A stretch of DNA of 64,000 bases, taken from assembly GCF_900112415.1 (NCBI RefSeq), contig NZ_FOLV01000007.1, positions 105,931-169,930 on the forward strand, given 5' to 3'. The stretch is from Bacillus sp. 491mf (GTDB lineage: Bacteria; Bacillota; Bacilli; Bacillales; Bacillaceae_G). The notes below the pieces were generated by a model, which worked only from the letters and a program-made list of their open reading frames with translations, was not told where the DNA came from and made no database searches. Of this stretch, positions 7,418 to 46,600 are shown piece after piece. The translations under genes were made by a program, and so were the position numbers. Each line of letters starts with the position of its first letter. Within the stretch, counting starts at the first letter, position 1.

Positions 7418-7514
7418 TTTGGATTGTGAGGAGAGGTTTAAAGATCTTGTTATACAACTCGGAGCTTGGGGGTATGAAAAAGACACGAGTTATAAAACTT
7501 TCTAGGTTCAGAAT

Positions 7515-7553
7515 GAAAAAAGGAAAGCGTCGAAAAGACTGCTTTCCTTTTTT
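7515..7553. terminator. bidirectional terminator between zinc-ribbon gene and yvbH-like gene
   Basis: An A-rich arm plus GGAAAGC (7515-7528) pairs with GCTTTCC plus a T-run (7541-7553) around a 12-nt loop. It can serve both converging genes. The 100 nt before it hold no convincing ORF. Confidence 0.8.
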
Positions 7554-7564
7554 GTAGTTCTACA

Positions 7565-8179
7565 TTAATTGTTAATAAACTTCTCAAACGCAAATCCAAA
7601 ATCTTTTACATTGTATTGTTTCTTCGTATCAACAAGCCAGTTGAATGCAATTTGATTAATTTCTTTAAACTGTGCTGCAAGATCTACTTCGGCATTTCTT
7701 ACATTACCTAATGTAGAAGATGCCATTTCTAGGCTTTTATGTGCGTATTGCGTTGCGATGTCGTTTTCATGAGTAATTTCAGCAATTTTTAGAAGGGCTT
7801 TATATAAATCTTTCACTTCTTCAATATGTTTTTTATGTATATCAATGGAGTAATGTTCTCCGCCCATAGTAAATTTAATTTCAATATCTAAATCGACAGT
7901 TCCAGCCGTTTCAAGCAGGACGTTAGAGATTTTATGAGTGTTGTAATTGTAGCGGCGAAGTGTACGTTTCTTGCTTACCGCACTCGTGCCGTCAACGTGA
8001 ATAAGAGCAGTATTTGTAAAGCAATACTCGTCTGTTTTCGATTTGATTAAAAAATAAATTTTTTCATTTTCTTCATGCATGACATAATCATCAGCATCTA
8101 CTTTATCGTAATCAGCAGGGGTAATAACGGATCCAATATCACTTAAGCCAAGCATATCAGCTGCGACTTTTTTGAACAT
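7565..8179 (-). CDS. yvbH: bacterial PH-domain protein, YvbH family
   Basis: A 204-residue cytoplasmic-looking protein with no signal or membrane segment. Residues about 10-125 resemble the bacterial pleckstrin-homology-like domain (IYFLIKSKTDEYCFTNTALIHVDG, then the SKKRTLRRYNYNTHKISNV strand pattern). Residues 130-204 are helical and fit the YvbH-type oligomerisation region. The role is not known. The ribosome site (GAAAGGATG on the minus strand) supports the start. Assignment to YvbH is from memory of the family's layout, so the symbol is tentative. Confidence 0.65.
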   Translation of the reverse strand: MFKKVAADMLGLSDIGSVITPADYDKVDADDYVMHEENEKIYFLIKSKTDEYCFTNTALIHVDGTSAVSKKRTLRRYNYNTHKISNVLLETAGTVDLDIEIKFTMGGEHYSIDIHKKHIEEVKDLYKALLKIAEITHENDIATQYAHKSLEMASSTLGNVRNAEVDLAAQFKEINQIAFNWLVDTKKQYNVKDFGFAFEKFINN

Positions 8180-8338
8180 AGTGAATCATCCTTTCGTTAT
8201 TGTTTTCAGAATCATCGCAATAATATTATATCACTTGTGCAGAAAGAAATGTTAAGTATAAGCAGGAAGAAACGAACAGAGGAATGAAATTTTATAGTGG
8301 TAATTCCATTTGAGAAAATCTATATAGGTGGTGTAATT

Positions 8339-8752
8339 GTGTATCATCATACAAAAACAAAAGGAGATTTAGGAGTTTTAAAAGCACAGGTTGATTTATG
8401 CGAAAAAGGTTATATGATACTTGTTCCTCATACAGAGCATGCTCCTTTTGACCTTGTAGCTTATAAAGATGGTGGTTTTAAACGGATTCAAGTGAAATAT
8501 AGAGAATTGAATGATAAAGGAATTCTTGAAATAAGGTTTCGTTCTAGTTATTCAACTGGGAAAGGGACAACTATGAAAAATATAGATAAAGAAGAAATTG
8601 ATGTTTATTGTGTGTATTGTCCTCAAACTGATTTATGTTATTACTTTGATCCTAAAGTCTTTCGTAAATCGATTAGCTTAAGAGTTAAAGATCCGAAAAA
8701 TTATCAAGAAAAGAATATAAATTTTGCAGATGAATATAGAGAAATTCCATAA
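8339..8752 (+). CDS. stand-alone PD-(D/E)XK nuclease-like protein (group I intron endonuclease-type)
   Basis: About 137 residues, starting at GTG 8339 behind AGGTGGTG; an in-frame GTG at 8297 would add 14 residues but has a poorer ribosome site. The fold signature is GDLGVLKAQVDLCEKGY (first helix), APFDLVAY (acidic residue on the central strand) and FKRIQVKYR (the Q-X-K replacing E-X-K). This arrangement is shared with the family that includes I-Ssp6803I, the endonuclease of a cyanobacterial tRNA group I intron. The first-helix acidic residue is not obvious here. It lies 1.7 kb downstream of the intron-containing tRNA and is not inside any intron. Its target is unknown; it might be a homing nuclease, a restriction remnant or something else. 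Confidence 0.65.
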   Translation: MYHHTKTKGDLGVLKAQVDLCEKGYMILVPHTEHAPFDLVAYKDGGFKRIQVKYRELNDKGILEIRFRSSYSTGKGTTMKNIDKEEIDVYCVYCPQTDLCYYFDPKVFRKSISLRVKDPKNYQEKNINFADEYREIP

Positions 8753-8791
8753 AACTACCCCAGTGTATGCACAAGGAGGTAGTTTTTATTT
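8751..8791 (+). terminator. terminator after the PD-(D/E)XK gene
   Basis: AAAACTACC (8751-8759) pairs with GGTAGTTTT (8778-8786) over an 18-nt loop and continues into T-rich sequence. Confidence 0.65.
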
Positions 8792-8857
8792 TGAGAAATC
8801 TTACAATTCTGTAAGGTACATGTAAGGTAGTTCGATGGTAACTATTTTTAAACATTT

Positions 8858-8863
8858 TATAAT
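8858..8863 (+). promoter_or_regulatory. candidate -10 box for the 33-residue ORF
   Basis: TATAAT at 8858-8863 lies 34 nt before the small ORF. The matching -35 (ATGGTA at 8835-8840, 17-nt spacing) is weak. Confidence 0.4.
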
Positions 8864-8897
8864 AAAGGTAACAAAGACGAAGCGAGGAGGAAAAATA

Positions 8898-8999
8898 ATG
8901 AAAGGATTAGCGGTAACAGCTTTAACAATTGCTTTTGGGGTTGTTGCATATGACAAACTAGCTGACATGATCGAAGTTGTAAAACAGTTAATGGCATAA
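8898..8999 (+). CDS. 33-residue small protein
   Basis: A short ORF with a very strong ribosome site (GAGGAGG, 7 nt before the ATG). It encodes a hydrophobic N-terminal segment (MKGLAVTALTIAFGVVAYD) followed by an amphipathic tail (KLADMIEVVKQLMA). The segment could anchor in the membrane or be a short signal. The strong translation start, a plausible -10 upstream and the uninterrupted frame argue it is real. I do not recognise a family. It is followed 23 nt later by another small membrane-protein ORF, so the two may be co-transcribed. Confidence 0.6.
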   Translation: MKGLAVTALTIAFGVVAYDKLADMIEVVKQLMA

Positions 9000-9022
9000 A
9001 TAAAGATTTAAGGGGAAAGAGA

Positions 9023-9271
9023 ATGGAATGGCTATTAGGAATGATTGGAGTTTGTAGTGTAATCTTATTATTCATGCTTCCAGGCGGATTGTTAAGTTCA
9101 AGTGTAACTATACTTTTCGTCTGTTCAATAATCTGCACAATTATCATTATTATGTTGTTGATAAAGCGCAGTAAGGTTATGCTCTTTTTTGGAGTCATTG
9201 TGATGACGTTTATTGTTATTCAAATTATAACCCTCTTTATATATCCTACTATTATAGAAGCTTTCCAGTAG
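9023..9271 (+). CDS. small integral membrane protein (82 aa)
   Basis: 82 residues that are almost entirely hydrophobic, with three likely membrane segments (about residues 3-23, 27-47 and 53-77) separated by short loops, one carrying the basic KRSK. An AGGGGAAAGAGA ribosome site precedes the ATG. No catalytic motif is visible and no function is assigned. A weak hairpin (ACTCT...AGAGG) with a T-run lies right after the stop. About 200 nt of AT-rich sequence without a further gene follow before the TPR gene. Confidence 0.6.
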   Translation: MEWLLGMIGVCSVILLFMLPGGLLSSSVTILFVCSIICTIIIIMLLIKRSKVMLFFGVIVMTFIVIQIITLFIYPTIIEAFQ

Positions 9272-9476
9272 ACTCTCCGCATCGGTAGCAGAGGGTTTTT
9301 GTTTTATATATAAAATTTCTACTTTCGTATTTTCCCCCTGATATATTCGATTTTTATATAGAAGAAATTGATGTTTTCTCAATAAAAACGAACAGATTCC
9401 AATTATTGTGTTCGGAACTGTCATTTGTTATATTAACTTTAAAGTGTATTGAAAATCTAAAAAAAGAGGCGAGCGT

Positions 9477-10484
9477 ATGGATAAAAAAGAAAGTACGGTC
9501 GTATTGTTTCCGCAATTGTCAGCGCGATATACCGATGAAGGATTTATTGCATTGCGTGAGCGTCGGTTTGAAGATGCGTTAAAAAACTTCGAAATGTTGC
9601 GCCAATACGGAGCACAGACAGAACAATCAGAATTAGCTTCAGTTATTTGCTTGCTAGAATTAAAGGAAATGGAAGAAGCGAAAGAACGATGTGAGAAATT
9701 ACTTGAAACAGGGGAGTTCTTATTTCAAGATATTCTCGAAACGTACATTACGATTTTAGTGCAGACAAATGATTACGAAGGTATTATTGAAACGGTGCAG
9801 TCTGTTTTACAAACGAAAGAAGTAACAGTAGAGCAAAAGGAAAAGTTAGCACAACTTGCCTTGTTTGCAAAGAGTATGCTTGAGAGTGAAGAAGCAGTAG
9901 TAGAAATAGATGGCGGTTTATCTTTTGATGAACCTGCGTTTGCGGATGCTTTACTGACGGGTGACTACGGGGAGCAACTGCGCGCGGTGAATCGTCTTGC
10001 GACTAAACATGTCGAAAAGGCGCTGCCGACGTTACGTACATTTTTATTAGATGAAACGAAACACCCGTATATTAAAACTTCTATCTTATATGTATTAATG
10101 GATTTCGGAATACAAGAAAAGGTAGATATAGAAAAGTTTGGTGAGACAATAACGGTTATACCGGCTAATTTGGCTTATAATCAATACGATACAGAAAAAG
10201 TGTTACATATATTGTCTGAACGATTAGAGCATGATAATCCGTCGATGTATGGGGCAATTATTACATATTGGAAAGAAATGCAGACAAGTCTCTTCCCGTT
10301 TCCTCTATTAACAGATAAAGATGAATTATGGGCAGCTGTTTTAGAGAGAGTTGGAAGGAAACGTTTTGGAATGCCAATCGATGAAGAGAAGCTTCTTCAG
10401 GAGTATGGTATTACACTGGAAGAATATCATATTGCATATCAGTGGTTTTTACGTATTGAGAAAGAAGGGTTTATGCCAGTATAA
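9477..10484 (+). CDS. ysoA: TPR-repeat protein YsoA
   Basis: 335 residues, mostly helical. Residues about 20-130 have tetratricopeptide-like helical pairs (RRFEDALKNFEMLRQYGAQT, LELKEMEEAKERCEKLL). The C-terminal part (about 155-335) resembles a HEAT-like helical array (LRAVNRLATKHVEKALPTLRTFLLDE, YIKTSILYVLMDFG). No catalytic motif is present, so a scaffold or chaperone-adaptor role is possible. Its position directly upstream of tig is conserved in Bacillus. The start is an ATG with a GAGGCGAG ribosome site. Confidence 0.85.
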   Translation: MDKKESTVVLFPQLSARYTDEGFIALRERRFEDALKNFEMLRQYGAQTEQSELASVICLLELKEMEEAKERCEKLLETGEFLFQDILETYITILVQTNDYEGIIETVQSVLQTKEVTVEQKEKLAQLALFAKSMLESEEAVVEIDGGLSFDEPAFADALLTGDYGEQLRAVNRLATKHVEKALPTLRTFLLDETKHPYIKTSILYVLMDFGIQEKVDIEKFGETITVIPANLAYNQYDTEKVLHILSERLEHDNPSMYGAIITYWKEMQTSLFPFPLLTDKDELWAAVLERVGRKRFGMPIDEEKLLQEYGITLEEYHIAYQWFLRIEKEGFMPV

Positions 10485-10806
10485 TGAAAAAGAATGTTTC
10501 AGTTATTGAAACGAGAGTATTCTATGTTATAATGTAAGGGTTGCAAAAGGCTTAAGTCTGCCTTTTTATAAGAGAACCGAAACACATATTCTCTTACTTA
10601 TATGTTTCATACTATTCTCGAACAAAATATACCGTATTTGTCTTTTCGACAAATAGTAGATTGAGAAGTATATGTCCAAAGCTTTTCGTGATGGATAGAA
10701 GGCTGAATTTATCAGTTTGCGTTTGTTGTTTCTTTATAAGGAATGATAAAGGCCTCGATCTCTAGAGGTATGTGCATACATTATTATAGTTGGAGGGAAA
10801 GAATAA
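10485..10806 (+). promoter_or_regulatory. tig promoter and long structured leader
   Basis: This 322-nt gap has no ORF. A sigma-A promoter is clear: TTGAAA (10506-10511), 16 nt, TATAAT (10528-10533). This gives tig a leader of about 265 nt, much longer than needed for translation. The leader contains a perfect 8-bp hairpin (TATTTGTC 10635-10642/GACAAATA 10648-10655), an imperfect hairpin (10579-10588 with about 10599-10608), and a strong GGAGG site. I recognise no known riboswitch. Confidence 0.6.
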
Positions 10807-12090
10807 ATGGCTGCAAAATGGGAAAAATTAGAAGGAAACGTTGGCGTTTTAACAATCGAAGTTGATGCGAAAGAAGTAAACAACTCTTTAGACGCTGCGT
10901 TCAAGAAAGTAGTAAAAACAATTAACGTACCGGGCTTCCGTAAAGGAAAAATGCCTCGTCCTCTATTCGAACAACGTTTCGGTGTAGAGTCTTTATACCA
11001 AGATGCTTTAGATATCATCTTACCAAAAGCATACGGAGAAGCAATCGATGAAACTGGTATCTTCCCAGTTGCTCATCCTGAAATCGACATCGAGAAATTC
11101 GAAAAAAGCCAAAACTTAATTTTCACTGCAAAAGTTACTGTAAAACCTGAAGTGAAATTAGGCGAATACAAAGGCTTAACAGTAGAGAAAACAGATGCTA
11201 CTGTAACTGACGAAGATGTTGAGAACGAATTAAAATCTTTACAAGAGCGTCAAGCTGAGCTTGTAGTAAAAGAAGATGGCACTGTAGAAGACGGTGATAC
11301 AGCTGTAATCGACTTCGAAGGTTTCGTTGATGGCGAAGCATTCGAAGGTGGAAAAGGCGAAAACTACTCTTTAGCAATCGGTTCTGGCACATTCATCCCA
11401 GGCTTTGAAGAGCAATTAGTTGGTCTAAAAGCTGGCGAACAAAAAGAAGTAGAAGTATCATTCCCAGAAGAATACCATGCAGCTGAACTAGCTGGTAAGC
11501 CAGCGACATTTAAAGTAACAGTTCATGAAATTAAAGTGAAAGAACTTCCTGCTTTAGATGATGAGTTCGCAAAAGATGCAAACGAAGAAGTTGCAACTCT
11601 TGATGAGTTAAAAGCAAAAATTCGTGAAAACTTAGAAGCGAGCAAAAAGCAAGAAGCTGAGCACAAAGTTCGTGACGAAGTAGTAGAAAAAGCTTCTGCA
11701 AATGCAGAAATCGATATTCCAGAAGCTATGATCGAAACTGAGTTAGATCGTATGGTTCGTGAATTCGAGCAACGCTTAAGCTACCAAGGTATGAACTTAG
11801 AGCTTTACTACCAATTCACAGGTACTGATGAAGAGAAATTAAAAGGACAAATGAAGGAAGACGCTGCAAAACGCGTAACAACTAACCTTGTTCTTGAAGA
11901 AATCATCAAAGCTGAAAACATCGAAGCAACAGAAGAAGAAGTAAATGCAGAAGTTGAAAAGATGGCTGAAATGTACAGCATGCCAGTAGACGCTGTGAAA
12001 CAAGCTCTTGGTAACGTTGAAGGTGTAAAAGAAGAACTTCAAGTTCGTAAAGCAGTAGATTTCTTAGTAGAAAACAGCAAGACTGCATAA
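10807..12090 (+). CDS. tig: trigger factor (ribosome-associated chaperone, PPIase)
   Basis: 427 residues. The N-terminal ribosome-binding domain carries the signature [17 protein letters not shown] near residue 40, which docks on L23 at the exit tunnel. The FKBP-type prolyl isomerase domain spans roughly residues 155-245 ([24 protein letters not shown] is its start, given in full only because the family is recognised by it), and a helical chaperone domain follows. Codon usage is richer in C-ending codons than in the neighbours (ttc, aac), as expected for a highly expressed gene. It has its own promoter and terminator. Confidence 0.97.
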
Positions 12091-28017: not shown

Positions 28018-28276
28018 CAATTATATAAATGCATTGAAGGGGAAGAGTATAACATTAAACGTCTGCAGAGAGGAGAATTATTAGCTGTGAGATTCTCTAG
28101 ATAGTCATGTTAGAAGGTAGCCCTGGAGCATCTTTTCTGAACGGAGTCATTCTCATTAGGAAAAGACGGGTCTGTCCGTTATCAAATCAAGAGTATAAGC
28201 AAATTTTGAATTTGTTTGTAAATAAAGGTGGTACCACGATGTCCCTCGTCCTTTTTGGATGAGGGACATTTTTTAA
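28018..28276 (+). promoter_or_regulatory. T-box leader controlling valS
   Basis: The T-box sequence AAGGTGGTACCACG is at 28225-28238. It is directly followed by a terminator: TGTCCCTCGTCC pairs with GGATGAGGGACA (28240-28270), with a T-run. Upstream GCAGAGAGGAGAA and the structured 28060-28160 region fit Stem I. A TATAAT at 28006-28011 would start the transcript near 28018. Uncharged tRNA-Val would stabilise the antiterminator and switch valS on. I could not fix the specifier codon with confidence. The stretch 27769-28005 holds nothing else I can name. Confidence 0.9.
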
Positions 28277-34414: not shown

Positions 34415-37400
34415 ATGAGCTGCATTCGTGATGTTGTGAAAGAAGATCAACCACGGGAACGTTTATTGCTAGAAGGAGCAAGCAGCTTATCGAATACAGA
34501 ACTTCTCGCTATATTACTTCGAACAGGTTCAAAAGAGGAGTCGGTCTTAACATTAGCAAATCGAATTTTGCATTACTTTGACGGATTACGAATGTTAAAA
34601 GATGCAACAATTGAAGAGATGACAAGTATTCATGGCGTTGGGGTGGCAAAAGCATCCCAACTTATTGCTGCTTTTGAACTTGGACGAAGAATGGTGCGTT
34701 TAGAGTATCAAAATCGATACAGCATTCGTAATCCAGAAGATTGCGCACGTTACATGATGGAAGAGATGCGCTTTTTACAACAGGAACATTTTGTATGCTT
34801 ATATTTAAATACGAAAAATCAAGTGATACATCGCCAGACGGTGTTTATTGGAAGTTTGAATGCCTCGATTGTGCATCCGCGCGAGATCTTCAAGGAAGCT
34901 TTTCGCCGCGCTGCTGCTTCTATTATCTGCCTTCATAATCATCCTTCCGGCGTGCGCCTGCAAGGTGTGTAATTTTAGCGGTTACTTAGTAACCTAGAAC
35001 TCCTTACAACGTTCTATGGTCAGCATCTTACCTTAAGGGGAAACCCATAGAGGGAACAGAGCATGATGTGAAAAGGAGAAAATACGACAAAGCTATCTAA
35101 CGTCGAGTCAGTTCTTCAGACCAAGTGATGTATGGTAAAAGCTACACTGCTTGAATCCTAGACGAATGAGCGATGGGTGCGCCGTTGTCTACGATAGTTA
35201 ACAGGCAATGAGGACAAAATGGGGGATGTATTTTCACTATGTCTGCTGGGTATCGCCAGAGCCCTGTCCATAGTAAGGTTTGTCCTTCAATCCTCCACTA
35301 GAGGAAACCGTCGAAAGGGATGCCTAACCATCACGTAACTAAAATTATGTCATAATGCAGGGATTACCTAAGTGCGAGCGCCAGTTGGCTATTAGACATA
35401 GGTCTATGAAAATTGCATACGGTAACGGAGTCCTCGTAGTACCCAACGTTTGCTTGTAATGAGTTTAGCAGGGGGAAGGGGGACAGGTTGATGTTAACGT
35501 CAATGAGAAAGGAGTCATGAATATGGCAACAAATCCATTTCATCAGTTGGACGTTATAAGGAAAGCTTCTCAAAATGGTAAAACAATAACGGATTGTTAC
35601 CGTCTCATGTATAAAAGAGAACTATGGATTAAAGCATACGCAAAGCTATATCCGAATGCTGGGAATTTAACAAAAGGAACGTCTGAAGAAACAATCGATG
35701 GTTTTAGCTTACAAAAGATTGATGAAATCATTGGCCAACTCAAGAATGGGATGTTTCGTTTTGCACCTGTAAGAAGAGTTTATATTCCAAAAGCAAATGG
35801 TAAAAAGAGACCTTTAGGAGTTCCTAACTTTAAAGATAAGTTGGTACAGGAAGTAATGAGAATGATTTTAGAAAATGTTTATGAACCAACATTCTCAGAT
35901 AACTCTCACGGATTTAGAGAAGGGAGAAGCTGTCACACAGCATTATCTCAAATCAAGAATACGTGGAAAGGGTTAACGTGGTGCATTGAAGGAGATATTA
36001 AAGGTTTTTTTGACCATATTGACCATACTGTACTAGTAAAGCTTATCTCAAAGAAAATAAATGACCGACGTTTCCTTCTCCTTGTTCATAATGCAATTAC
36101 TTGTGGTGTAATGGAAAATTGGATTTACCATAAGACATACAGCGGTACACCACAAGGCGGTATTATTTCTCCCTTATTAGCTAACATTTATCTTCATGAG
36201 TTTGATTTGTTCATGGAAAAACAAATGAAGAATTTTGAAAAAGGAAATATTAGGGCGAGAAATAAAGAATACGTTGCGATTCGTTCGGATATCAGAACCC
36301 TTTCACGAAAGGTTAAGAAACTTGATGAAAGAAACGGACATGAATTGTGGGCAGGGCGAGTAGACCTTGTAAACAACATTCAAGAACTTAAATCGAAGCA
36401 AATAAAAATTTCATCAATAGACCCTATGGACAAGGATTATCAAAGAATGAAATATGTTCGTTACGCTGATGACTTCGTAATTGGGATAGCTGGTACTAAA
36501 CAAAGTGCATGGAATGTTAGGGAAAGGATTAAACATTTTCTTAAAGAGGAACTCCGTCTTGACCTTAGTGAAGAAAAAACGCTCATAACACATCTTGAAA
36601 ATTCGATATCTTTCTTAGGTTACGAATTTCGCAGGTGGAGTGAAGTAAAGGTCAAAAGGATTGCGTATAAGAATCAAAAACACCCATTGAAGAAAAGAAC
36701 ACTCTCAGGTGCAATAAAGTTAGAGATCCCAGAGAAGAAAATCAATGAATTTGCAGTCAAAAACGGATATGGAAACCTAGATAACTTCAAAATTGTACAT
36801 CGGACAAAATTAATAAACAATTCGGAATTAGAAATTTTGCACACGTATAACGCTGAACTACGAGGAATTGCAAACTACTACAAGCTAGCAAATAATTACC
36901 ATCATTTAGATAGGTTGTTTTATTTAGCAGAGAGTAGTTTTATTAAAGCCATAGCTAATAAACGTAGAAGCACCTCGATGAAAGTGGCTACAAGCATGAG
37001 AACACACAAACAAGGAGTACTTTGCCTAGCAAGAAAAGATAAACATGGCAATGAAAAACTTCATCAGTTTGTGAAATTAAAAGACCTGCCTAAACATAAA
37101 GGTGCGATTAAAGCTGATACACCAGAAATAGACTCATACGTGAATACAATGAAATATTCTGGGCGAACAGAATTTGAAAAGCGTTTGTTAGCTAATAAAT
37201 GTGAAGCGTGCGGTGCAACAGAAGGTCAGATGGAAGTTCATCACGTTCGAAAATTAAAGGACTTGAAAAAGAAACGAAATTTAAAGTATTTGGATAAGGT
37301 TATGATTGAACGACAAAGGAAAACAATCGTCCTATGCTTTAAATGCCATCATGACCATCATGAGAAGCAAATTCCGATTAGTCAACTGGCGAGCCGTATA

Positions 37401-39107
37401 CAGTGAAAGCTGTACGTACGGTTCTGAGGGGGGGACTGTGAGACCTATTTGGGTAACTAAATAAGGCGCACGCTCCCTACCCTACGACCCCGCGCCAAGC
37501 CGAGAAGATATTGAAGTCACGAAAAGGCTTGTAGAATGCGGGAAGATTATTGGCATTGAAATTCTCGATCATAGTGTGCGTTGTTCCTAGACAATCTGCG
37601 TAGAAATAGGCAATAAAACTAGGCAAAGGTACTTACCTTTGAACTTTACGCTTGAATAGGTTGGTGAAATCCCAACTCATCGTTAAATGTTGGTAACGAT
37701 GCTCTGAAACTCCGACGTGCATAAATGGTTAACTACATTTGTGTACGAAGCTCGGTAAAGGCGTTGAAAAACAGACCTGAGAAGAGGTTAGTGAAGTAAG
37801 CGGGAGGCTATAAGACCGTCATGCTGACTCACCAGGAATCCTCGTATGTACGGCTCGTAAAGGTAAAGGGAAACGAAATGAAGTTTCTCGCTTCTGTCAA
37901 AGAAGTTTAATCGTGGGTTTTGTATTTGTGGTTGCAAAATCTATACTACTCCAATAATGGAATAGTGTCTTGCGTCCTACCAACAGCGGACAAAAAGATG
38001 GTTAACGGGTCAAAGAGGACAGCTAAAACGGTAATGGAAAGCTAAAGCGTAAGGAACAGCGGAACCATAGAAGATGATGACAAGAGGAGTTAAATTCAAT
38101 GCATCTAAATTGGAGGAAATGACAATTGAATCTATGGGACAGCAGCCCGTAGTAGTGTCGAAGTTTCTGTAATGGGAATGGAGCGAAGGGGCATAGTCAG
38201 TTCAATTAATAAGTTAAATCAATTTGTTAGGGAAGCCGTTTGAGCATACCTGATTAAAACCTTGCATTCTCCCAATAAGGAGGAATCGCAATGGAACAAG
38301 AATCTAACTATCTAAAATCAGAACAAGAGTTAAGAGATAAACAGGACGAGTTATATAATAAAACTATCGAAGGCATGGCGGTTATAAAGTATCCGCAAAA
38401 CAAGTAAACAATTTACGGTCAGTCCATGAAACGTACGAAACCAAAATACCAATGATTGAATATAACGAATTGAAAATAGGTGTTACAAGGCTAGATTTTT
38501 GTAGGTGGAAAAAACCTAAAAATAAAAGTCCTACCGAAACACCATACACCGGACTGGGTAGACAAATTTATATGAATCGAACCAGCAAAAAGCCTGTTAA
38601 AGTAAGAGCGGATGAACTTCTCAGCTTGAATTGGTCTAAGATTATCAAAATTGGACATAAGGAAAAACTGTACAACTTTGAATATTTTATGAATCGAGCC
38701 TATGCTTTTAACCGTGATAAAGGAAGATGTCGAGTATGTAAAGAGATACTTCAAGGGGACGATATACACATACACCATATCAACTCCAAACTTCCTATAG
38801 AAGAAGTAAATCGAGTCCCTAACCTTGCATCCATGCACGAACATTGCCATCGAATGATTCACAGTCCAAAAGATTATTCCATGGTCGGAAAAGCTACTTG
38901 GGAAAAAGTTCTAGGTTTTAGAGAAAAATTGAGCTTAACTTAAATAATTGAATTGATGGAACGCCGTATGAGGTGAAAATCTCACGTACGGTGTGAAGTG
39001 GGGGAAAAGAACTCCTAACGAGTAATGTTGAGGTTGTTTCTTACCTATCACTATTTATTATAGGTGACCATAAATTCATTAGTTTAAAAGATAAAGGTCA
39101 TATTTAA
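34415..39107 (+). CDS. radC: RadC (JAMM/MPN+ domain), split into three exons by two group II introns
   Basis: Inferred exons are 34415-34951 (537 nt), 37486-37573 (88 nt) and 39055-39107 (53 nt). Joined they give 678 nt, a 225-residue protein with a continuous frame and the length I expect for Bacillus RadC. The N-terminus has a helix-hairpin-helix ([21 protein letters not shown]). The C-terminal JAMM motif H-x-H-x7-S-x-x-D is His174, His176, Ser184, Asp187. Intron 1 falls right after HNHPSG (residue 179), separating the His pair from Ser/Asp. Intron 2 falls inside codon 209, after ILDH. Without splicing of intron 1, translation stops six codons into it (34972). The biochemical role of RadC is unsettled. 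Context upstream of mreB is conserved. Confidence 0.9.
35523..37406 (+). CDS. ltrA: group II intron reverse transcriptase/maturase with HNH endonuclease
   Basis: About 627 residues. GGAG is 8 nt from the ATG at 35523 and 2 nt from the in-frame ATG at 35517, so the former is preferred. RT motifs in order: [29 protein letters not shown], the catalytic [11 protein letters not shown], and the LGYEF motif. A maturase domain X follows, then a C-terminal HNH zinc endonuclease (CEACGATEG...VHHVRKL...CFKCHHDHH, residues about 560-620). All core motifs are intact, so it is probably active in splicing and retrohoming. Its last codons and stop lie inside intron domain V. The symbol is a family name only. 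Confidence 0.93.
   Translation: MATNPFHQLDVIRKASQNGKTITDCYRLMYKRELWIKAYAKLYPNAGNLTKGTSEETIDGFSLQKIDEIIGQLKNGMFRFAPVRRVYIPKANGKKRPLGVPNFKDKLVQEVMRMILENVYEPTFSDNSHGFREGRSCHTALSQIKNTWKGLTWCIEGDIKGFFDHIDHTVLVKLISKKINDRRFLLLVHNAITCGVMENWIYHKTYSGTPQGGIISPLLANIYLHEFDLFMEKQMKNFEKGNIRARNKEYVAIRSDIRTLSRKVKKLDERNGHELWAGRVDLVNNIQELKSKQIKISSIDPMDKDYQRMKYVRYADDFVIGIAGTKQSAWNVRERIKHFLKEELRLDLSEEKTLITHLENSISFLGYEFRRWSEVKVKRIAYKNQKHPLKKRTLSGAIKLEIPEKKINEFAVKNGYGNLDNFKIVHRTKLINNSELEILHTYNAELRGIANYYKLANNYHHLDRLFYLAESSFIKAIANKRRSTSMKVATSMRTHKQGVLCLARKDKHGNEKLHQFVKLKDLPKHKGAIKADTPEIDSYVNTMKYSGRTEFEKRLLANKCEACGATEGQMEVHHVRKLKDLKKKRNLKYLDKVMIERQRKTIVLCFKCHHDHHEKQIPISQLASRIQ
37391..37424 (+). ncRNA. domain V of group II intron 1
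   Basis: 34-nt hairpin with GAGCCGTATACAG / CTGTACGTACGGTTC arms and a GAAA loop. The AGC catalytic triad is at 37392-37394. It overlaps the 3' end of the RT gene (stop at 37404-37406). Confidence 0.9.
38291..38407 (+). pseudogene. N-terminal remnant of the intron 2 maturase
   Basis: 38 codons with a good ribosome site (AAGGAGG). They encode [21 protein letters not shown] and a short tail, like the start of a bacterial intron maturase, then a stop. The RT domains that should follow are missing, and the downstream endonuclease fragment is in another frame. This is best explained by an internal deletion of well over 1 kb. Confidence 0.7.
38452..38943 (+). CDS. HNH endonuclease fragment of the intron 2 maturase
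   Basis: 163 residues from the first ATG; the frame is open further upstream through sequence such as [14 protein letters not shown]. It matches the C-terminal part of group II intron proteins, with the En domain CRVCKEIL...[11 protein letters not shown]...[13 protein letters not shown]. No RT motifs (such as YADD) occur in intron 2. Whether this piece is translated is uncertain: no good ribosome site precedes 38452. It might supply only DNA cutting, or be a decaying remnant. Confidence 0.75.
   Translation: MIEYNELKIGVTRLDFCRWKKPKNKSPTETPYTGLGRQIYMNRTSKKPVKVRADELLSLNWSKIIKIGHKEKLYNFEYFMNRAYAFNRDKGRCRVCKEILQGDDIHIHHINSKLPIEEVNRVPNLASMHEHCHRMIHSPKDYSMVGKATWEKVLGFREKLSLT
38961..38994 (+). ncRNA. 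domain V of group II intron 2
   Basis: 34-nt hairpin ACGCCGTATGAG / CTCACGTACGGTGT with a GAAA-like loop. The triad is CGC (38962-38964) rather than AGC, unlike intron 1. This indicates the two introns belong to different lineages and did not arise by local duplication. Confidence 0.85.
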
Positions 39108-46499: not shown

Positions 46500-46600
46500 G
46501 TTTATAGCACCTAAATGGCTATATGCTACAACCGCGCAGGACAGGTTCCTAAAAGACATTGTATGTCTACCTCGTTTTGGCGAGTCTTAGTAATTATGAG
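46500..46600 (+). promoter_or_regulatory. L21 leader (candidate ribosomal-protein leader)
   Basis: The 46443-46611 interval has no ORF. From about 46528 it reads CCGCGCAGGACAGG...TTCCT, then a short hairpin, then TACCTCG...CGAG before GAGGAGG. This resembles the L21 leader RNA found upstream of rplU in Bacillus, proposed to bind L21 for feedback. Boundaries are approximate. Confidence 0.55.

Follow-up and report, generated by a model that had tools for sequence, protein, structure and literature searches.

We found that radC in the window, that is, the whole 64,000-nt stretch of Bacillus sp. 491mf that was analysed, is split into three exons by two different group II introns in the sense orientation. 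Very probably this gene of an Ectobacillus-like chromosome hosts two independent introns, whose lineages target codons of the conserved JAB domain for homing, and only the doubly spliced mRNA would yield complete RadC. It is one case among many, since radC has been colonised repeatedly and at several sites. Its parts are as follows:

34415-39107, + strand: radC, three exons, split by two group II introns
34415..34951, + strand: radC exon 1, 537 nt, 179 codons, through HNHPSG (Pfam RadC 97.6 bits, TIGR00608)
34952..37485, + strand: group II intron 1 (site A), 2534 nt, GTGCG...CCCTAC, mobile-type
37486..37573, + strand: radC exon 2, 88 nt, DPAPSRED...LDH plus one base (Pfam RadC 1.1e-8)
37574..39054, + strand: group II intron 2 (site C), 1481 nt, GTGTG...ACTAT, RT deleted
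39055..39107, + strand: radC exon 3, 53 nt with the stop, its 16 whole codons corresponding to the C-terminus of uninterrupted RadC

A three-exon bacterial radC had been proposed from the sequence alone (hereafter the sequence-only reading), and it is borne out by intronless relatives without gaps at the junctions and by domains V and VI at the 3' ends of both introns. We searched the exon peptides one by one against 80 radC loci from other species. In uninterrupted radC (Ectobacillus funiculus L001, Gottfriedia L003 and E. antri L008), the exon 2 peptide follows directly after that of exon 1, and the exon 3 peptide begins one (split) codon after that of exon 2, so that these genes are continuous at both insertion points; because the peptides adjoin there without gaps, both exon boundaries are exact to the codon, the second lying inside one. 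The exons total 678 nt (537 + 88 + 53), which is the 226-codon frame proposed earlier (225 residues and a stop) and the length of uninterrupted E. antri radC. Exon 1 is 86-87% identical to Ectobacillus radC at the amino acid level and covers positions 1-76 of the Pfam RadC model, exon 2 covering positions 77-105. In a radC tree, the window groups with E. antri and E. panaciterrae (96/82), and this group with E. funiculus (100/99). The neighbours of the gene are presumably a Maf-like ORF upstream and mreB-like ORFs downstream. All three exons are under constraint: pN/pS against E. antri is 0.14, 0.18 and 0.14 for exons 1, 2 and 3, and ranges over five relatives from 0.11 to 0.23, 0.11 to 0.18 and 0.14 to 0.27, respectively, with synonymous sites near saturation and exon 3, at 16 whole codons only, being a weak test. 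Intron 1 sits between HNHPSG and the D of the JAB motif, residues that we take to have a role in metal binding, and translation of the unspliced intron ends six codons inside it, before this D is reached.

Intron 1 carries the following elements:

35245..35260, + strand: candidate EBS1 region from a complement scan (35245-35250 or the loop 35255-35260)
35517..37406, + strand: IEP1, 629 aa, with RT (YADD), maturase domain X and HNH endonuclease
37389..37485, + strand: domains V and VI (RF00029, 67 bits), ending exactly at 37485

Domains V and VI at the 3' end (the gathering score of RF00029 is 40), the GUGYG start and the AY end identify it as a group II intron, and its IEP combines RT, domain X and endonuclease. 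Preceded by an AAAGGAG stretch, IEP1 matches RVT_1 (2.1e-34), Intron_maturas2 (9.9e-12) and an AI2M-like HNH (2.2e-16) in Pfam; its best solved-structure match is LtrA (E 2.2e-133), the protein of Ll.LtrB, with which it aligns over residues 15-613 (RT, X, HNH), the target of Ll.LtrB presumably differing from the radC site of intron 1. IEP1 is under purifying selection (pN/pS 0.13-0.14 against L134, L018 and L128, and 0.19 against L137). The intron is present at full length at the same site in seven other genomes (L131, L138, L134, L018, L128, L136, L137; 75-85% nucleotide identity), with 82.4% identity to that of L018 over its whole length. A Tn554-like transposon at radC was considered and rejected: the inserts contain no tyrosine recombinase, and intron 1 encodes an RT-type protein, of which intron 2 holds remnants. 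We propose that radC is transcribed with both introns and that IEP1 is translated from the precursor; it would then aid splicing of intron 1, which is very likely to occur, and could retrohome the intron into empty radC copies of relatives.

Intron 2 is a deletion copy, with the following elements:

37927..37932, + strand: candidate EBS1 (TGTGGT), pairing 6/6 (two G-U) with the exon 2 end ATCATA
38291..38407, + strand: N-terminal remnant of IEP2, 38 aa, residues 1-29 being 90% identical to the IEPs of L140 and L141 before it runs off frame
38359..38376, + strand: deletion junction (intron positions 786-803), an 18-nt overlap of two blastn blocks to L140
38452..38943, + strand: C-terminal remnant of IEP2 with HNH, 163 aa, 88% identical in amino acids to the C-terminus of the complete L140 IEP
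38959..39054, + strand: domains V and VI (RF00029, 56.6 bits), ending exactly at 39054

It too has domains V-VI at its 3' end, a GUGYG start and an AY end, as well as an RF02004 match at 37671-37814. That the two introns are separate insertions, as suggested earlier from their domain V triads, is supported: the triads are AGC in intron 1 and CGC in intron 2, sites and lineages differ as well, and IEP1 stands far apart in the protein tree from the L140 IEP, which serves as stand-in for the broken IEP2. The first 803 nt of intron 2 are 93.5% identical to the same-site intron of L140 (G390) and 92.2% to that of L141 (G402), the last about 700 nt 84% to both. The L140 intron is 1225 nt longer, and the overlap of the two blocks is of the kind that a deletion between short repeats would leave. 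Judged by position, the missing part corresponds to about residues 29-429 of the 623-aa L140 IEP, that is, the RT (107-344) and the stretch where X lies; Pfam itself names no domain X in the L140 IEP. Profile searches of the remnants, which lie in different frames, found neither RT nor domain X, the X profile being from another lineage and hardly seeing the L140 IEP, and the HNH of the 163-aa remnant scores just under Pfam's cut-off (E 9.8e-4). Intron 2 has no IEP with an RT or a recognisable maturase, which bears on its mobility and not on its status as an intron, reduced and ORF-less introns being accepted members of the class. The pN/pS of the 163-aa remnant is 0.16 against L140 and 0.14 against L141, compared with 0.12 between the latter two, so either the remnant is still constrained or the loss is young. 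This loss of the RT had been left out of the sequence-only reading, as had the recurrent role of radC as an intron host.

As we interpret it, the 1.2-kb deletion removed the RT and, judging by position, the maturase domain of intron 2, which would have kept its ribozyme ends and exon pairing and become a splicing-only passenger that may self-splice or borrow a maturase in trans. An unlikely alternative is that only intron 1 splices and that intron 2 has been dead since the deletion. Translation of unspliced intron 2 would end five codons past the last whole codon of exon 2 and give a RadC without its last 17 residues. The lack of an RT in its protein fits such a loss, as do the 163-aa remnant without an evident ribosome-binding site (by eye) and the site-C intron of L141, whose IEP is split by a stop and whose radC is a fragment preceded by a large element. 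Against it, the ribozyme part is 93.5% conserved with L140, its domain V-VI score is near the 59.1 bits of L140, the candidate EBS1 pairs and exon 3 is open. We regard splicing of intron 2 as likely, complete RadC being in this case predicted only from the doubly spliced mRNA.

Between the window and L140, intron 2 (93.5% over 803 nt) is far closer than the radC exons (61% for exon 1 and 80% for exon 2), so it has probably moved between hosts. When five related genomes were searched for P0004, the complete relatives that turned up were all distant (43% and 40%) and came from E. panaciterrae. The Metabacillus plasmid pB218 (L081, L082) has a RadC-like JAB gene with a site-B intron; next to a DUF6094 gene, it also encodes a complete protein that is the best plasmid match of the intron 2 remnant. 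This plasmid is a possible vehicle.

We surveyed 397 genomes drawn from the same order for the exon codons followed by GTGYG, exact patterns that miss radC introns at variant codons or other sites. Site A (HNHPSG|D, the site of intron 1) is occupied in 16/397 genomes, site B (HPRE[IV]|F) in 11/397 and site C (LDHx|, the site of intron 2) in 2/397, while reversed-pattern controls gave 0/397 for sites A and C and 2/397 for site B (G162, G218). In total, 25/397 genomes have a radC with at least one group II intron and 5/397 one with two. Sites A and B are occupied together in G144, G207 and G368, three genomes against 0.44 expected by chance (p 0.007); the other double carriers are G390, with B and C, and G279, with B and a fourth site, D. 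The site-D intron is listed here:

L189 3837-5117: site-D intron of RF02004 type without long ORF, 8 nt upstream of site A and beside the site-B intron

The downstream part of radC is present behind the insert in 29/29 survey cases. RF00029, run on the loci of 10/16 site-A, 11/11 site-B and 2/2 site-C cases, identified the 3' end of every intron; for L128, L130, L131, L132 and L134, all at site A, the assignment is based on sequence likeness and exons, the G041 case came up in an RF00029 search of 61 genomes, and the L127 intron ends in CTC, not TAC. That search matched 34 of the 61 genomes, with some 150 matches in all, and of the 30 loci examined (the best match of each of 30 genomes) 4 lie in radC. 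Among the 80 radC loci of other species, introns are found in L002 (B), L018 (A; same genome as G004) and L051 (B). With the same junctions in so many other genomes, the notion of an assembly or chance artefact whose boundaries are merely intron-like is refuted; nothing was found in its favour, and we give it practically no credence. In a phylum-wide sample, some of it shared with the order set, site A was occupied in 0/398 genomes, which suggests that such introns are a feature wholly or almost wholly limited to Bacillales. One pattern match in a viral contig was taken as chance, there being no RadC match there.

The sequence-only reading had stressed that bacterial introns usually avoid conserved genes. 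This stands as a general statement (PMC4424553, as far as the source was available), to which radC, with introns in 25 of the 397 genomes, is an exception. Two introns in one radC had likewise been called striking, which is tempered by the recurrence of radC as a host in the order and by a radC intron, O.i.I2, that was already known from the same source.

In the IEP tree, site-A proteins (16 rows) form one clade and site-B proteins (12 rows) another (100/100 each), which points to dedicated lineages and not random insertion. The sole complete site-C IEP (L140) pairs in the tree with that of an intron lying in a DUF6094 gene of a Metabacillus plasmid, and this pair was used as root. Intron hosts are scattered on the radC tree, as would be expected of horizontal homing.

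Pairing between EBS1 and IBS1 offers a further view of these introns. In intron 1, the candidate at 35245-35250 would form 6/6 pairs, including G-U, but may lie in a stem arm, whereas the loop at 35255-35260, read by eye, would form 5/6 with a mismatch at the third base of the Ser codon. In intron 2, the first base of EBS1 covaries with the exon base across the window, L140 and L141 (three sequences only). For every host, we scored the six bases of the EBS1 region that best complement its IBS1, and shuffled hosts 1000 times, a permutation that does not allow for relatedness: pairing with the own host scored 181 against 146 shuffled for 17 site-A introns (0/1000 as high), 103 against 86 for nine degenerate or ORF-less introns (1/1000) and 78 against 72 for eight RT-complete introns (96/1000, not significant). 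The signal at site B was weak (47/1000 as high). Examples are ACCCGAT opposite ATCGGGT in L139 and ACCGGA opposite TCCGGT in L135. Settled introns thus appear tuned to the synonymous codons of their own host, recent arrivals less so. A codon-matched EBS1 is the best indirect sign of selection on radC splicing, the sign being weakest for intron 1 of the window. As a sub-hypothesis, full-length site-A introns could have two neighbouring EBS1-like hairpins, those of L131, L134 and L138 suiting the two serine codon families of HNHPSG. This reading rests on inspection by eye, because the structures obtained when the EBS1 region of each sequence was folded did not agree with one another.

The 17 site-A introns, window included, form a decay series. 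In six (window, L018, L128, L134, L137, L138), the IEP is uninterrupted and 625-629 aa long, two retain the RT with a broken HNH end (L131, L136), and the 450-aa ORF of L132 keeps VDD without HNH. Neither YADD nor HNH is left in seven (L125, L126, L127, L129, L130, L133, L139; 262-440 aa), and the 877-nt intron of L135 has no ORF of at least 80 aa. A profile built from intact domain X detects X in 6/7 degenerate ORFs, with E values from 9e-45 to 8e-13; the X of L133 lies in a short frame of its own (E 1.5e-9), and no reversed sequence scores. Pfam alone sees the maturase in L126, L129, L130 and L132 and not in L125, L127, L133 and L139. The RT profile matches L125, L126, L127 and L130, with no match in L129, L139 or L133 (the last at 0.15), and the HNH profile matches 0/7. 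On the host tree, five changes are needed for the six rows labelled degenerate (L126 is not in that tree, and L129 and L135 have labels of their own), but eight degenerate IEPs group together in the protein tree (88/98, with long branches), and on the ribozyme tree a single origin of RT loss could not be rejected (p-AU 0.33). The predicted structure of the 262-aa IEP of L139 is confident over about residues 155-250 only. Its closest match in the PDB, to the group II intron RT complex 8h2h (E 0.028, prob 1.00), is weak, and none reaches E <=0.001.

These data bear on whether radC could be a pseudogene, its introns stranded in a non-essential gene and its exons intact only because the insertions are recent, which we consider quite improbable. 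The gene is reported to be non-essential in B. subtilis and S. pneumoniae (PMC3788773, from the part available), so loss of splicing could be tolerated, and recombinase and large elements interrupt the radC of relatives. On the other hand, the downstream exon is open in frame in 16/16 site-A cases, also behind degenerate introns (in L137 the last RadC residues differ from the usual end, and in G068 the parts are separated by a large element), domain X is retained while the RT decays, and EBS1 tracks the synonymous codons of the host.

It is a long-standing question how group II introns turned from selfish elements into obedient introns that only splice; such descendants include organellar introns and, by the usual theory, spliceosomal introns. 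On balance, we lean towards seeing Bacillales radC as a nursery, in which at least two mobile group II lineages, each specific to a codon stretch of the RadC catalytic domain, invade horizontally, stack, lose HNH and RT, keep domain X and adapt their exon-binding loop to the synonymous codons of the host. Stacking is seen as two introns per gene, and four sites have been seen. If this holds, radC would offer a natural series of grades between retroelement and splicing-only intron, a bacterial parallel to how MatK arose, and the window would display both ends of the series in one gene, intact intron 1 and gutted intron 2. With intermediates in series at one radC site, splicing, maturase dependence and mobility could be compared along the series.

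A 2015 review describes intermediates in bacteria as rare and, in the part available, names a single one with a degenerate IEP as the only known case, itself in radC: O.i.I2 of Oceanobacillus iheyensis, an ML-class group II intron (PMC4424553). Like the degenerate radC introns here, O.i.I2 has an IEP without YADD that is still open and is thought to keep maturase activity; it is described there as one intron, whereas the window has two, one of fully mobile type. L125, of the same family as Tenuibacillus, may be O.i.I2 or a relative. The MatK protein of the chloroplast trnK intron is likewise a maturase without RT function in a housekeeping setting, but is organellar and is described in the same source as serving several introns (PMC4424553). 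In Trichodesmium erythraeum, protein genes contain one or multiple group II introns, many of them ORF-less (PMC4649490); these are cyanobacterial and in other genes, and the text covered ties no lineage to one gene. The literature covered, which took in few subscription papers, yielded no report of a radC with more than one intron, of radC lineages tied to a site or of a decay series.

A conserved active-site motif can be the target of unrelated mobile elements. The Tn554 family (Tn554, Tn558, Tn6188) also inserts in this stretch of radC, Tn6188 between bp 540 and 541 of its host gene, compared with after bp 537 for intron 1; unlike the introns, these are DNA transposons with tyrosine recombinases that interrupt radC without splicing (PMC3788773, from the part available).

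Tyrosine-recombinase inserts are found at or within a few codons of site A in Planococcus and Planomicrobium radC (L031, L037, L038; about 7500-11000). Those of L031 and L038 have two recombinases and a small third gene, a layout that we take to be Tn554-like, and Enterococcus faecium plasmids carry copies with 98% identity to one of the L038 recombinases. In G068 (contig C10, 119606-165116) and G402 (contig C1, 3224542-3284650), some 43 kb and 59 kb, respectively, separate the 5' part of radC from its 3' part on the same strand, so large elements have also entered the gene; in both, the 3' part contains a group II intron. Siminovitchia fordii has a second RadC-like fragment just downstream of radC (L016, 8134-8283). 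Elsewhere in the window, we observed a T-box leader (28025-28256) and an L21 leader (46520-46597), both ordinary for Bacillota.
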